Positions 6,596 through 36,954 of a stretch of 37,558 nt of DNA are shown here, piece by piece. The stretch lies in the NCBI GenBank assembly GCA_902774015.1, contig CACYHB010000018.1, forward strand, positions 1 to 37,558. Direction: 5' to 3'. The notes beneath the pieces are model-generated. The model was not told the DNA's origin, ran no database searches, and saw nothing but the letters and a program-made list of their open reading frames with translations. The position numbers and the translations under genes are program-made. How positions within the stretch are numbered: the stretch's first letter is position 1; the number at the start of each line of letters is the position of its first letter. The stretch comes from Oscillospiraceae bacterium. Its GTDB lineage: Bacteria; Bacillota; Clostridia; Oscillospirales; Oscillospiraceae.

Positions 6596-6765
6596 CTTCG
6601 CTCCGGGCGCGCGATATACGCGTGTACCGGATAGGTTTCAGCCGCCCGATTGCGTGCCGACACCGGGTCGACACCGGACATACTCCACGGAAGTTACCTC
6701 GCTTTCACGAGCAATCTCCCGCTTCCTCGCATAATACGCCCGTGCTCTCGCACACGCGCTTGAAT

Positions 6766-25737: not shown

Positions 25738-25766
25738 TTGACAAGGGCCACGGCCTGGTATATATT
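25738..25766 (+). promoter_or_regulatory. rplJL promoter
   Basis: TTGACA (25738-25743), 17-nt spacer, TATATT (25761-25766): identical boxes and spacing to the S10 promoter. The transcript has a leader of about 145 nt before rplJ. Confidence 0.93.
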
Positions 25767-25773
25767 ATTTGAG

Positions 25774-25822
25774 CGCTCCGAAGACAGCAGGTGGGTTCTG
25801 CCCGTAAATCCTGCCGAGGACA
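25774..25822 (+). ncRNA. L10 leader (ribosomal protein L10 autoregulatory RNA)
   Basis: The segment CGCTCCGAAGACAGCAGGTG followed by GTAAATCCTGCCGAGGA matches the conserved L10 leader: a stem around CAGCAGG/CCTGC with the flanking CCGAAGAC and CCGAGG. L10 in complex with L12 binds it and represses rplJL. It is placed between the promoter and an attenuator (25848-25883). Identity rests on motif recognition. Confidence 0.85.
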
Positions 25823-25847
25823 TCAACAAGCTTTGATTGTTTTTGTG

Positions 25848-25883
25848 CCTTTGCGTCTTTTCGGATGCAGAGGTTTTCTTTTT
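25848..25883 (+). terminator. attenuator in the rplJL leader
   Basis: CCTTTGCGTC (25848-25857) pairs with GATGCAGAGG (25864-25873), ten pairs including two G-U, loop TTTTCG, followed by TTTTCTTTTT. It lies 38 nt before the rplJ ATG. The L10 leader upstream would control whether it forms. Confidence 0.75.
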
Positions 25884-25920
25884 GGGCGCGACTGATATCG
25901 TGTGGAGGTGAAAAACACAC

Positions 25921-29781: not shown

Positions 29782-29797
29782 AGCCGCGTCAAGTAAA

Positions 29798-29892
29798 TAT
29801 GGGGAGCTGGGTGATCCCGGCTGAGAAGGGGTAAGCGAGCCTCTAAACCCAGGAACCTGATCCGGGTAATGCCGGCGTAGGAAACAGAGTAC
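29798..29892 (+). ncRNA. TPP riboswitch (THI element)
   Basis: Conserved TPP aptamer elements are present in order: GGGGAGCTGGGTGATCCCGG with CTGAGA (the thi-box), then ACCCAGGAACCTGATC, CGGGTAATGCCGGCGTAGG. The thi-box consensus CTGAGA plus ACCTGATC and GCGTAGG is diagnostic. It is upstream of thiT and an intrinsic terminator (29900), so it should turn transcription off when thiamine pyrophosphate is abundant. Confidence 0.95.
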
Positions 29893-29899
29893 GCAGTTT

Positions 29900-29931
29900 G
29901 CCGCAGGTTCGCGATCGAGCCTGCGGCTTTT
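29900..29931 (+). terminator. TPP riboswitch expression-platform terminator
   Basis: GCCGCAGG (29900-29907) pairs with CCTGCGGC (29920-29927), 12-nt loop, followed by TTTTG. It is placed between the TPP aptamer and thiT. Confidence 0.8.
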
Positions 29932-33997: not shown

Positions 33998-34025
33998 TTA
34001 TCTGTCTGATTTTCCTCCGCTTCAA

Positions 34026-34054
34026 TTGACAAAGCAGGGCAAAAAGGCTATAGT
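34026..34054 (+). promoter_or_regulatory. metNIQ operon promoter
   Basis: TTGACA (34026-34031), 17-nt spacer, TATAGT (34049-34054). Transcription should start near 34061, about 25 nt before a Met-rich leader ORF. Confidence 0.9.
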
Positions 34055-34085
34055 ATGCCCATCCTTTGAAAGGAGCGAACCGTCT

Positions 34086-34190
34086 ATGGCTAACATCGGC
34101 AGCAAGATGATGGCTGGGATGCGCATGTGCGGCATGCGCATGATGATGTGCGCGCAAAAAAGCGGTTCGCCCGATTTCACAGCCACCTGA
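34086..34190 (+). CDS. 34-residue methionine-rich leader peptide of metNIQ
   Basis: A short ORF starts with ATG at 34086, ten bases after a strong SD (AAAGGAG, 34069-34075), and ends with TGA at 34188-34190. It has nine Met among 34 residues (positions 1, 8, 9, 12, 14, 17, 19, 20, 21) and two Cys; residues 8-22 read MMAGMRMCGMRMMMC. The rest (for example KSGSPDFTAT at the end) is not hydrophobic. It lies between the metNIQ promoter and a strong terminator, like trp or his leader peptides. Ribosome stalling at Met codons when charged tRNA-Met is low could decide read-through. I know of no such leader described for metNIQ in Firmicutes; novelty needs a search. Confidence 0.75.
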   Translation: MANIGSKMMAGMRMCGMRMMMCAQKSGSPDFTAT

Positions 34191-34224
34191 ATGATCTGAC
34201 AAATCATCCGGCCGGGAAGCGAGC
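34165..34224 (+). promoter_or_regulatory. candidate antiterminator pairing in the met leader
   Basis: GTTCGCCCG (34165-34173) can pair with CGGGAAGCGAGC (34213-34224) over about nine pairs with a three-base bulge, using the left arm of the terminator. A ribosome stalled on the Met cluster (to about 34148) would leave 34165-34173 free and favour this pairing; a ribosome reaching the stop at 34190 would cover it. The pairing was found by hand and was not energy-tested. Confidence 0.45.
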
Positions 34225-34246
34225 GGGCTCGCTTCCCGGCTTTTTT
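34211..34246 (+). terminator. strong intrinsic terminator in the metNIQ leader
   Basis: GCCGGGAAGCGAGC (34211-34224) pairs with GCTCGCTTCCCGGC (34227-34240), 14 bp, followed by TTTTTT (34241-34246). It lies 20 nt after the leader stop codon and 123 nt before metN, on the promoter-metN path, so transcription has to read through it. Confidence 0.95.
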
Positions 34247-34282
34247 GTGCGCTTCCTCCGGGCGGGGGAGACAGAACCGGCG

Positions 34283-34330
34283 CAACCCCTCGGTCGCTTT
34301 GCGACAGCTCCCCTTACACAGGGGAGCCAA
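34283..34330 (+). repeat. REP-like palindromic repeat upstream of metN
   Basis: AACCCCTCGGTCGC then GCGAC and AGCTCCCCTTACACAGGGGA: two stems, GTCGC/GCGAC (34293-34305) and GCTCCCC/GGGGAGC (34307-34327, 7-nt loop). This looks like a short repeat common in intergenic regions of Oscillospiraceae and relatives, as I recall. It lies in the leader between the terminator and metN. Confidence 0.55.
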
Positions 34331-34368
34331 AGAGGAAATTATATTGTATTGAAAGACAGACGTCAGCC

Positions 34369-35358
34369 ATGATCGAACTGAAACAACTTTGCAAAACCTA
34401 CTCGGCGCCGGACAAGGAGATCCACGCCCTGGAGGACATCAACCTCAGCATCCGCGACGGTGAGATCTTCGGGATCATCGGCCTCTCCGGCGCGGGCAAG
34501 AGCACCCTGGTGCGCTGCATCAATCTCCTGGAGGTGCCCACCTCCGGCCAGGTGCTGGTGGACGGGAAGGATCTCACGAAGCTTCCCCGGAAGGAACTGC
34601 TGCTCCTGCGCCGCTCCATCGGCATGATCTTCCAGAGCTTCAATCTGCTGGAGCAGCGCAACGTTTTGAAAAACGTGTGCTTCCCGCTGGAGATCGCCGG
34701 CGTGGACCGGAAGACGGCGGAGAAAAAGGCGCGGGAACTGCTGGGCATCGTGGGTCTTGCCGACCGGGCGGACTCCTACCCCTCCCAGCTCTCCGGCGGT
34801 CAGAAGCAGCGCGTGGCCATTGCCCGCGCCCTGGCCACGGACCCCAAGTACATCCTCTGCGACGAGGCCACCTCCGCCCTGGACCCCAACACCACCCGCT
34901 CGATCCTGGATCTGCTGCGGCAGATCAACCGGGACCTGGGCGTTACCATCATCGTCATCACCCACGAGATGAAGGTCATCGACCAGATCTGCGACCGGGT
35001 GGCCGTCATCGACCACAGCCGCATCGCCGAGGAGGGAAAAGTGAGCGAGGTCTTCACCTCCCCCCAGTCCCAGATCGCAAGAGATCTGATCATCCCCCGC
35101 GACCGGGCGGCCCTGGACACCAAGGGCGGGCGGCATATCCGCATCACCTTCAACGGCAGCTACTCCCAGGAGCCGGTGATCTCCAACATGGTGCTGGAGT
35201 GTCAGGCGCCGGTCAACATCCTCTTTGCCGATACCAAGGAATTTGAGGGCGTCATCTACGGCCACATGATCGTTGAGCTGCCGGCCGACCCCAAGCAGGC
35301 GGACAAGATCCTGGTCTGGCTGAAAAACAGCCCGGTGGAATGGCGGGAGGAGGTCTGA
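34369..35358 (+). CDS. metN: methionine ABC transporter ATP-binding protein
   Basis: MetN energises uptake of methionine with MetI and MetQ. The 329-residue protein has Walker A GLSGAGKST (residues 38-46), signature LSGGQ (141-145), Walker B ILCDEATSALDP, and a C-terminal NIL/ACT-like regulatory domain (about 240-329) that senses intracellular methionine (GRHIRITFNGSYSQEPVISN). The ATG at 34369 has only a weak Shine-Dalgarno (GAAAGAC region) and may depend on the leader. The stop is 3 nt before metI. Confidence 0.96.
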   Translation: MIELKQLCKTYSAPDKEIHALEDINLSIRDGEIFGIIGLSGAGKSTLVRCINLLEVPTSGQVLVDGKDLTKLPRKELLLLRRSIGMIFQSFNLLEQRNVLKNVCFPLEIAGVDRKTAEKKARELLGIVGLADRADSYPSQLSGGQKQRVAIARALATDPKYILCDEATSALDPNTTRSILDLLRQINRDLGVTIIVITHEMKVIDQICDRVAVIDHSRIAEEGKVSEVFTSPQSQIARDLIIPRDRAALDTKGGRHIRITFNGSYSQEPVISNMVLECQAPVNILFADTKEFEGVIYGHMIVELPADPKQADKILVWLKNSPVEWREEV

Positions 35359-35361
35359 GAT

Positions 35362-36042
35362 ATGCTGTCTGATATGTTCTACAAGCTCTGGAGCGCGGGT
35401 CTCATCCAGAAGGGCATTTGGGAGACCATCTATATGACCCTTCTCTCCACCGCCGTCTCTTATGTGATCGGCCTTCCCCTGGGCGTGATCCTCACGGTCA
35501 CCGACAAGGGCGGCATCCACCCCATCCCCTGGCTCAACCGGGTGCTGGGCGTGATCGTCAACTTCTTCCGCAGCATCCCCTTCATCATCCTGATGGTGGC
35601 CATGCTGCCGGTGGCCAAGTTCGTGGTCGGCACCTCCCTGGGCAACAAGGCCATGATCGTCATGCTGGTCATCGCCGCCGCGCCCTACATCGCCCGCATG
35701 GTGGAATCCTCCGTCAAGGAGGTGGACGCCGGCGTCATTGAGGCCGCCCAGGCCATGGGCGCCACCAATTTCCAGATCGTCCGGAAGGTGCTGCTGCCGG
35801 AGGCCAAGCCCTCCCTGATCCTGGGGGCCGTGATCTCCATGGTCACCATCCTGGGCTACTCGGCCATGGCCGCCACCATCGGCGGCACCGGCCTCGGCCA
35901 GATCGCCATCAGCTACGGCCACCAGCGCTTCAACCCGGACATCACCTGGATCTGCGTTTTTCTGACTGTTTTGATCGTTCAGATCATTCAGGAGGTCGGT
36001 ACCGCCATCGCGCACCGCACCGATAAAAGAGCAAAACAATAA
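35362..36042 (+). CDS. metI: methionine ABC transporter permease
   Basis: The 226-residue permease has five to six membrane helices and the cytoplasmic EAA-type loop (EAAQAMGATNFQIVRKVLLP) that docks MetN. Blocks include VSYVIGLPLGVILTVTDKGG, LGVIVNFFRSIPFIILMVAM and GTGLGQIAISYGHQRFNPDI. Start ATG at 35362 follows GGAGGAGG in the metN end. Confidence 0.97.
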   Translation: MLSDMFYKLWSAGLIQKGIWETIYMTLLSTAVSYVIGLPLGVILTVTDKGGIHPIPWLNRVLGVIVNFFRSIPFIILMVAMLPVAKFVVGTSLGNKAMIVMLVIAAAPYIARMVESSVKEVDAGVIEAAQAMGATNFQIVRKVLLPEAKPSLILGAVISMVTILGYSAMAATIGGTGLGQIAISYGHQRFNPDITWICVFLTVLIVQIIQEVGTAIAHRTDKRAKQ

Positions 36043-36066: not shown

Positions 36067-36954
36067 ATGAAAAAGACACTGGCACTCATTCTCACCGCAG
36101 CACTGGTCCTTCTCACCTTCGCAGCCTGCGGAAACACCGCCCCTGCGCCCGCCGCCACCGAGGCCGCCCCCGCTGCCGATCAGGCCGCTCCCGCCGAAGA
36201 GGCCGCCGCTCCCGAGACCGTCAAACTCACCGTCGGCGCAAGCTCCACCCCGCACGCGGAGCTGCTGGAGATCGTCAAGCCCGCGCTCGCCGAGCAGGGC
36301 ATCGAGCTCGACGTCGTGATCTATGACGACTACGTGCTGCCCAACACCGCCCTGCAGGACGGCACTCTGGACGCAAACTACTTCCAGCACACCCCCTACC
36401 TCAACAGCTTCAACGCCTCCAACGGCACCGATCTGGTCTCCGCCGGCCTCATCCACTATGAGCCCTTCGGCATCTACAGCCAGACCGTCACCGACCTGAA
36501 GGAGCTGGCCGACGGCGCCACCATCATCGTCCCCGACGACGATTCCAATCAGACCCGCGCCCTGCTCCTGCTGCAGCAGGAGGGCCTCGTGGAGCTGCCC
36601 GACGGCGCTTCCGTGGATAACGGCGTGACCCTGCTCGACATCGTGGACAACAAGGGCTACAACGTGCAGGCCGTGCAGGCTGACGCCGTTCCCTCCCTGC
36701 TGGCAAACTCCGACGCGGGTACCGTGGCCGTCATCAACTACAACTACGCGCTGGGCGCAGGTTTCAAGACCACCGATGCCCTGGCCATTGAGGACGCCTC
36801 CGGCAACGCCGCCCAGACCTACGCCAACATCATCGCCGTCCGCCGCGGCGACGAGACCCGTCCCGAGATCCAGGCTCTGGTGGCCGCCCTGCAGGCGGGC
36901 GCCGTGGACGCCTACAACGAGCAGACCGGCGCCGGCATCGTCGGCATCCAGTAA
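36067..36954 (+). CDS. metQ: methionine-binding lipoprotein MetQ
   Basis: The 295-residue protein starts with a signal peptide and lipobox LTFAAC (Cys21), then an Ala/Pro/Glu-rich linker (about residues 22-55) and the NLPA domain: VGASSTPHAELLEIVKPALA, DVVIYDDYVLPNTALQDGTL, ANYFQHTPYLNSFNASNGTD, and ATIIVPDDDSNQTRALLLLQ. The fold binds D- or L-methionine. GGAGGAAAAC precedes the ATG. A terminator follows at 36973. Confidence 0.97.
   Translation: MKKTLALILTAALVLLTFAACGNTAPAPAATEAAPAADQAAPAEEAAAPETVKLTVGASSTPHAELLEIVKPALAEQGIELDVVIYDDYVLPNTALQDGTLDANYFQHTPYLNSFNASNGTDLVSAGLIHYEPFGIYSQTVTDLKELADGATIIVPDDDSNQTRALLLLQQEGLVELPDGASVDNGVTLLDIVDNKGYNVQAVQADAVPSLLANSDAGTVAVINYNYALGAGFKTTDALAIEDASGNAAQTYANIIAVRRGDETRPEIQALVAALQAGAVDAYNEQTGAGIVGIQ

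Follow-up and report, generated by a model that had tools for sequence, protein, structure and literature searches.

A candidate methionine attenuator: a conserved Met-rich leader ORF upstream of metNIQ in Oscillospiraceae

In the trp, his, and leu attenuators, of which E. coli trpL and hisL are examples, a Shine-Dalgarno (SD)-led ORF with cognate codons is followed by mutually exclusive, overlapping RNA arms, an intrinsic terminator, and the cognate operon. In the trp layout, arm 1 is the stretch holding the cognate codons, and the first hairpin of the trp leader pauses the polymerase. No leader peptides were known outside Proteobacteria and Actinobacteria, the erm type excepted, before a report of His leader peptides in Firmicutes (PMC2965389; see also PMC9413887). 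A 2013 comparative survey lists His, Leu, Thr, and Trp as attenuator specificities, and Ile/Val and Phe types are known besides (PMC3766115); a Cys-type attenuator was proposed in 2021 (PMC8632094). The literature searched, which covered few subscription papers, yielded neither a title nor an abstract about leader peptides with Met codons, and within that literature the leader-peptide attenuator class has no methionine member.

The leader described here lies upstream of metNIQ in an Oscillospiraceae bacterium, in a window of 37,558 nucleotides (the whole stretch of DNA that was analyzed). It has all of the parts of the trp, his, and leu attenuators named above and would work like trp and his, but it differs from them in its amino acid, in its hosts (Clostridia and two Synergistaceae records), in its use of the ribosome-binding site (RBS) as arm 1, and in the control of uptake plus metA and metY. 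With the Met T-box (RF00230) it would share tRNA-Met charging as input, the same kind of gene, and a terminator as output, as in the L. lactis met operon (PMC7058034) and S. aureus metICFE (PMC3771891); unlike the leader, a T-box works independently of translation, by direct binding of uncharged tRNA. The S-box, or SAM riboswitch (RF00162), is the common controller of met genes in Firmicutes, but it senses SAM and in the window's genome occurs only before metK. The Streptococcus fthC motif also combines a uORF with a terminator and has a proposed link to methionine; in contrast, it is proposed to sense tRNA-fMet initiation at one start codon, and no Met-rich ORF is described in the available part of that report (PMC11109978). 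Another sulfur-amino-acid uORF attenuator, uORFC-8-2 before cysS in Rhodobacterales, differs in having two Cys codons, in belonging to Alphaproteobacteria, and in lying upstream of a tRNA synthetase (PMC8632094).

The features of the locus are listed in Table 1. The promoter, SD, 34-codon ORF with nine Met codons, terminator, and metNIQ gene order given in a first-pass annotation of this DNA were all confirmed. The ORF extends from the ATG at 34086 to the stop codon at 34190 and encodes MANIGSKMMAGMRMCGMRMMMCAQKSGSPDFTAT. Besides the start there are eight Met, all in residues 8-21, and the probability of at least 8 Met in 33 sense codons was 2.6e-8 at the local base composition. In 59 of 73 leaders, a TATAAT-like site (at least 5 of 6 positions) occurred at a distance of 15-75 nt before the ATG, a count that has no shuffle control. 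By PF04204, no metA was detected in the window's genome (94% complete), and with no MetA found the organism possibly depends on methionine uptake.

Table 1. Positions of the leader, its RNA arms, and the downstream genes in the window
Feature	Position	Strand	Evidence
Sigma-70-type promoter, TTGACA-17-TATAGT	34026..34054	+	11/12 consensus matches
Shine-Dalgarno AAGGAG of the leader ORF	34070..34075	+	sequence; aligned in alignment A1
Arm 1, GCGAACCG, SD to start-codon spacer	34075..34082	+	perfect complement of 34163-34170
Leader ORF, 34 codons plus stop, nine Met codons	34086..34190	+	sequence and homologues
Met-codon hairpin, ATGCGCATGT-GCG-GCATGCGCAT, possible pause hairpin	34119..34141	+	base before ATG and resampling
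Arm 2, CGGTTCGCCCGATTTC, ORF codons 26-31; pairs with arm 1 or arm 3	34163..34178	+	duplex, RNAalifold, covariation
Arm 3, made up of the terminator 5' arm and the first base of the loop; pairs with arm 2 as antiterminator	34210..34224	+	
Intrinsic terminator (arms 3 and 4), 14 pairs at 34210-34241, loop of 4, U-run	34210..34246	+	
metN, methionine ABC transporter ATPase	34369..35358	+	TIGR02314, 371.3 bits (below the cut-off of 499.7)
metI, permease	35362..36042	+	NF008049, 217.9 bits (cut-off 212)
metQ, substrate-binding lipoprotein	36067..36954	+	NF008285, 130.7 bits (below the cut-off of 374)

Conservation of the ORF upstream of metN had been proposed as a check on the first reading. Relatives of metN were taken from 60 related genomes, 32 of which had a match at 1e-60, and from at least 80 named records. 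Counting that of the window, 104 distinct regions upstream of metN were compared, and 39 of them had an accepted Met-rich leader (at least 3 internal Met); MARIFNNMMMAEMCMCGMCMMMRAQKCGSPSSSAI (L031) and MRSFRIVNCMMMGMMYMFRMCMMMCAQKHDSPCFVSI (L036) are examples. The filter also passed L051 and L080, whose ORFs were taken to be internal to other genes and were not counted. The screen found no leader in the remaining 65 regions, some of which were shortened by contig ends and others of which were full length, and these leaderless regions include genomes of the same genus. We also scanned the two strands of 510 kb around metN in 80 records for ORFs that follow an SD, have 12-50 codons, and contain at least 4 internal Met and at least 14% Met. 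There were 29 such ORFs on the plus strand and 7 on the minus strand, and 27 of the 29 were at the head of a met operon. The Met-rich ORF is thus conserved upstream of metN, and it was also found upstream of metQ, metA, and metY.

The Met codons are specific to the reading frame. In 93 leaders, the window's included, Met accounted for 25.1% of in-frame codons compared to 1.1% and 0.3% in the two other frames and 2.0% in the window's MetNIQ, and each leader had 5-11 internal Met codons (L093, L073, L107, L058, L059, L060, L063, L067, and L074 were left out of these codon counts). A chance ORF is ruled out by the conservation together with the frame-specific Met content. Cys made up 9.0% of leader residues. 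The codon directly before Met was TGC in 130 of 130 cases for Cys (TGT never), TAC in 20 of 20 for Tyr, and CGC in 38 of 53 for Arg, whereas Cys codons in other positions were TGC 103 times and TGT 41 times.

We surveyed the family with a covariance model built from 24 leaders, at a threshold of E 0.01 or better. The model returned 109 rows in 96 of 400 family genomes and 40 of 106 genera. On inspection, 75 rows were directly before metN, metQ, metA, or metY (73 genomes, 26 of 106 genera), 2 were before cysteine genes (L264 and L286), 1 was before a BPD-type permease (L175), and 1 was at a contig end (L177). The other 30 rows (29 stretches), including L278 near a generic ABC protein, had no leader before a met gene; the count of 96 genomes is therefore overstated, and 73 were verified. 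Besides the window's own row, 69 rows were strong (E 6e-6 or better). The first gene after these was metN in 34, metQ in 22, metY in 6, metA in 5, one other gene, and one contig end, so that 67 of 69 have met genes downstream and show the cognate-gene feature of attenuators. Likewise, a terminator followed the ORF in 67 of these 69 strongest matches. Of 39 weak rows, 7 were before met genes (L265, L266, L267, L269, L270, L287, and L299), 2 were the cysteine rows, and 30 were not leaders. Three MetY (TIGR01326) and three MetA (of the homoserine O-acetyltransferase kind) were confirmed by Pfam and NCBIfam; the remaining gene labels come from BLAST against two MetA and two MetY of leader loci and the window's MetNIQ. 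The leader thus appears to be one member of a regulon, which the first-pass annotation had missed.

Two Met-rich leaders were before genes of other kinds. L175 (G027:C5) precedes the BPD-type permease, beyond which there is also a MetN-like ATPase, and L245 (G572:C35; the ORF of L187) precedes a 415-aa protein. It is possible that these downstream genes are further methionine-related genes.

Arm 1, which was not recognized in the first-pass annotation, is the leader's own RBS. In the window, GCGAACCG pairs perfectly with CGGTTCGC (34163-34170), so arm 2 can sequester this site. In contrast to the trp layout, arm 1 is the SD region rather than the stretch of cognate codons, and a hairpin of its own, lying between arms 1 and 2, is formed by the Met codons. 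When 34061-34246 was folded, the minimum-energy structure had arms 1 and 2 paired and included the terminator (z -3.12; 1 of 200 shuffles was as good). A pairing found by hand in the first-pass annotation, 34165-34173 with 34213-34224, was nearly right: the conserved core of the 2:3 pairing in the window is 34165-34170 with 34219-34224, and its extension is 34175-34178 with 34215-34218.

The arms were tested by duplexing the SD region, the ORF end, and the terminator 5' arm, either matched or permuted between leaders. In a first set, the 1:2 and 2:3 duplexes were stronger within than between leaders. With 62 independent leaders, the 1:2 duplex had -18.20 kcal/mol when matched compared to -14.06 when permuted, and the 2:3 duplex -14.09 compared to -11.49, each with 0 of 5000 permutations as good. 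The 1:3 control gave -7.68 compared to -7.54 (1462 of 5000), and in the 48 more distant of these leaders it leaned the same way (251 of 5000). The counts for the 62 leaders are not probabilities, because the leaders are related. Repeats (L111, L112, L113, L115, L119, L120, L145, and L158) were left out of this set, as were L093, L136, and L177 (no terminator was found in L136 or L177), and L080, L100, and L105 were kept.

RNAalifold on a MAFFT alignment (A1) recovered the 2:3 helix unsupervised. Arm 1 and the terminator are poorly aligned in A1, in which spacing varies; this is why RNAalifold shows only the Met hairpin and the 2:3 helix, and why 1:2 was tested by matched and permuted duplexes. 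In A1, 89.8% of the cells of the 2:3 helix were paired, compared to 24.5-53.0% when the helix was slid, and 11 cells were changed on both sides compared to 3.7 in shuffles (0 of 500). Weaker measures were pairs with a double change (4 compared to 1.9; 15 of 500) and further pair types (11 compared to 9.8; 107 of 500). The proposal that an alternative pairing competes with the terminator is therefore upheld by a pairing that is both favorable and covarying. The C-terminal part of the leader peptide varies between genera and looks shaped by RNA pairing.

The GCGCATG/CATGCGC stem suggested earlier proved to be part of the conserved Met-codon hairpin. In 89 leaders (those excluded from the codon counts, plus L100, L105, L173, and L175, were left out), C preceded ATG in 233 of 247 Met codons at three hairpin positions compared to 91 of 223 other Met codons. 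For 86 of the 89, the stability of the Met block was above the average for its synonymous resamples, and in the median leader 20% of the resamples were as stable as the real block. The hairpin showed no clear covariation, with an A-C mismatch seen 2 times at the variable pair compared to 3.5 expected from column totals. By analogy with the first hairpin of trp, it may pause the polymerase. After the Met block, Ala was present in column 34 of the leader-peptide alignment in 76 of the 89 leaders (GCC 40, GCG 23, GCT 8, GCA 5), and the residue before it was R, C, or H in 81. The third codon base is free, which points to selection on the residue; no RNA pairing that explains this Ala was found.

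Outside the family, eight SD-led Met-rich leaders were found before metY, metQNI, or metNIQ in other families of the class Clostridia, an assignment taken from the names of near relatives (L183, L184, L188, L194, L198, L213, L215, and L212, the last with a longer stretch, L246). L214 (longer stretch L250) has a Met-rich ORF with no SD. This order and class survey used a sequence-only model (R2), and 30 of the 59 loci returned were inspected; 20 of the 30 had no leader before a met gene. R2 is noisy, in that below about E 1e-6 most inspected order and class matches were ATG repeats, and its tallies (65 of 197 and 76 of 341) were therefore not used as prevalence. Two Synergistaceae records had leaders before metQNI (L100, E 1.2e-5, and L105, E 0.0013), and their arm 2 contains TCTCCTCC, the complement of the leader SD GGAGGAG. 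A third Synergistaceae record, L101, had no leader, and L088 had only 20 nt of upstream sequence.

The two cysteine rows were both followed by cysE, a label that rests on best matches below the TIGR01172 cut-off. At L286 (G409:C30), an SD-led, Cys-rich peptide, MRRFVCISFADAVCVCCCRAQNSSAFCR, has no internal Met, keeps RAQN at the position after the Met block, and is followed by a terminator and cysE. At L264 (G397:C42), a Met- and Cys-rich peptide, MNRFAMNNMVMCMPMCMCMCCCAQFCHAFSADGIGA, and a terminator precede cysK and cysE, and its arm 2 can form duplexes with the SD region (-15.2) and with the terminator arm (-20.0, a helix of 16 bp). These loci are possibly a cysteine version of the same scaffold. 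In these two cases, which are few, the leader codons match the operon, as would be expected for an attenuator.

The first-pass annotation had seen no S-box or T-box at this site, and our scans agree. At Rfam gathering scores, neither RF00162 nor RF00230 matched the window's leader, nor did any described leader model among the amino-acid leader families of Rfam. Up to E 10, the region 34000-34400 had six matches, all implausible (e.g., eukaryotic microRNAs). The leader was accordingly judged not to contain an S-box, a T-box, or any other RNA in Rfam. Among 40 metN loci scanned, a T-box was present within 300 nt upstream of metN in 5 (L061, L062, L064, L095, and L099) and an S-box in 3 (L089, L090, and L097); at about 0.9-1.0 kb upstream, L082 and L084 had a T-box and L102 had an S-box. 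The nine scanned metN loci that bear a leader (L058, L059, L060, L063, L067, L073, L074, L100, and L107) had neither. There was also no S-box or T-box at 40 further leader loci, where the only Rfam match was a THF riboswitch beyond the first gene, at L141. Four aligned T-boxes of sister metN genes all had GAA-C/G-AUG-G (4 of 4), a position that we take to be the specifier, i.e., Met. The window's genome has six T-box matches, all on other contigs, and exactly one S-box, which precedes what is presumably metK, as recognized from its sequence. An S-box was found in 266 of 400 family genomes at E 0.001. On this reading, SAM synthesis would be governed by SAM and methionine supply by Met-tRNA.

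We folded the leaders with a ribosome at different positions, another check that had been proposed for the first reading. With the ribosome as a barrier, arm 3 capture in the window was 0.70-0.79 for a stall at any Met codon, 0.00 at the stop codon, and 0.31 with no ribosome. Of 101 leaders, 97 had a capture in the Met-stalled state that was more than 0.1 above that at the stop codon, and none had the reverse. This contrast is partly trivial, since a ribosome at the stop codon hides most of the upstream RNA, and the spacer was therefore shuffled as a control. Shuffling reduced capture from 0.715 to 0.561. The real spacer was above the shuffled mean in 88 of 99 leaders and above all 15 shuffles in 22 of 99, with about 6 expected (L073, L093, and L107 were left out). 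In the same type of calculation, E. coli trpL had a similar capture of 0.62 when stalled and 0.00 at the stop codon; E. coli hisL had 0.81 and 0.80, which marks the limit of the method.

When pairing was allowed to bridge the ribosome, capture in the window was 0.31-0.40, hardly if at all above the value with no ribosome; the means over leaders were 0.51-0.54 with no ribosome, 0.54-0.57 for a Met stall, and 0.43-0.49 at the stop codon. Because bridged pairing brings the states close together, an attenuation model needs the ribosome to act as a steric barrier. Whatever the state of the ribosome, the full-length terminator dominates at equilibrium (0.98 in the window), so antitermination would have to be kinetic. 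The same test gave 0.82 for trpL and 1.00 for hisL; since these proven attenuators behave alike, dominance of the terminator at equilibrium does not count against attenuation. With no ribosome, the fraction of RBS bases paired with downstream RNA was 0.47-0.52 on average over leaders.

Taken together, these data make it very likely that the leader controls methionine uptake through ribosome-mediated transcription attenuation, with charged tRNA-Met as the signal that is sensed. The attenuator features present in the sequence are the cognate ORF, the terminator, the 2:3 antiterminator, and the 1:2 protector, and the stall and stop behavior is reproduced in silico with the ribosome as a barrier. 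This reading has its basis in the conservation of the ORF, the codon bias, the terminator, the covarying 1:2 and 2:3 arms, and the regulon. The proposal of ribosome-mediated attenuation made in the first-pass annotation is accordingly supported at the sequence level by the conserved Met-rich ORF and the covarying alternative pairing.

We infer translation, stalling, kinetics, and the sign of the response as follows. RNA polymerase would transcribe the leader, and a ribosome would load at the SD (arm 1). When methionine is plentiful, the ribosome would clear the Met block and cover arm 2 near the stop codon, so that arm 3 would pair with arm 4 and transcription would terminate. After termination, arm 2 may re-pair with arm 1, which would close the leader RBS and keep the terminator state. 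When charged tRNA-Met is scarce, the ribosome would stall in codons 8-21, upstream of arm 2, and separate arms 1 and 2. Arm 2 would then capture arm 3 before arm 4 is made, with read-through into metNIQ. The RBS-as-arm-1 layout is a simple design. If true, the list of attenuator amino acids would gain one from a widespread Met leader, which would also suggest how a large group of gut and rumen Clostridia controls the uptake and synthesis of methionine at loci in which neither an S-box nor a T-box was seen (the window and 49 other leader loci scanned). Such a leader would, in addition, be an example of an exchange at one operon between two RNA devices, the T-box and the leader peptide.

A switch that mainly reads the loading of fMet-tRNA ribosomes at the start codon, with the internal Met codons only tuning it, would agree with an arm 1 that includes the SD or the SD-to-start spacer, with about half of the RBS bases being predicted to pair when no ribosome is present, and with the match of the Synergistaceae arm 2 to the leader SD. 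Sensing of initiation by tRNA-fMet has been proposed for the streptococcal fthC uORF (PMC11109978), and S. aureus has a Met T-box specific for the initiator (PMC3771891). Initiation sensing alone, however, has the wrong sign, in that low methionine would mean fewer initiations and would favor 1:2 pairing and termination, and it leaves the 5-11 internal Met codons of each of the 93 leaders unexplained; we regard it as improbable. A combination is more plausible but still doubtful: a two-input switch in which the internal Met codons read elongator Met-tRNA and the RBS as arm 1 reads fMet-tRNA initiation, on a wide scaffold (Oscillospirales, other Clostridia, Synergistaceae) that stands in for the Met T-box and is re-coded for cysteine before cysE. 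Methionine is special in that it also starts every protein. If this were true, expression would peak at a moderate shortage, when ribosomes load but stall, and would drop again when fMet-tRNA becomes too scarce for initiation.

Two explanations place the function in the peptide. Arrest of translation by the nascent peptide, as in leaders of the TnaC and ErmCL type, with methionine or SAM bound in the ribosome, is consistent with the Ala after the Met block and its free third base, with the R, C, or H before it, and with the RAQN retained by the Cys-rich L286. The other C-terminal residues, however, vary between genera and are apparently shaped by RNA pairing, and arrest by abundant methionine would require the opposite wiring, which leaves this explanation little probability. 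Slightly less probable still, the ORF could encode a small protein, rich in Met and Cys, that has an independent function (e.g., metal binding) and to which the terminator belongs. The Met and Cys contents of 25.1% and 9.0% would suit such a protein, but the ORF keeps a constant place before met genes, arm 2 covaries with the terminator and the SD, and the codon choice before Met (always TGC for Cys and TAC for Tyr, mostly CGC for Arg) points to selection at the RNA level. A riboswitch that binds SAM or tRNA but has diverged beyond recognition by Rfam might be considered, as S-boxes or T-boxes serve related operons elsewhere. Against it, even at E 10 there was no plausible match, the conserved sequence is an in-frame ORF, a normal S-box is kept at metK, and no S-box or T-box was found at 49 further leader loci; we consider such a riboswitch extremely unlikely.

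Several minor observations were made in the course of the analysis. Upstream of metN, L063 and L067 each have two tandem leaders with a terminator after each. The first leaders of these two loci and the leaders of L059, L060, and L074 have few Met and share a RAE/RAD...GL/GF-like end, and they may constitute a second leader class. SD-led Met-rich small ORFs were also seen upstream of metN in L073 (Erysipelotrichaceae; MVKSVMMMMSNNTKQWVLAASNSTTH, terminator present) and L107 (Spirochaetales; MRNTNAMSMMMCLSMMPSRA, no terminator found), and these two leaders perhaps have independent origins. Elsewhere in the window, Rfam matched a TPP riboswitch at 29791-29900 (+), an L10 leader at 25760-25888 (+), and an S10-Clostridia leader at 6654-6735 (-). 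Between the terminator and metN, the window has a hairpin, GCTCCCCTTACACAGGGGAGCC (34307-34328), that is single copy in the window and that we take to be repeat-like; the close relatives L031 and L032 also have an extra hairpin-like sequence between the terminator and metN.
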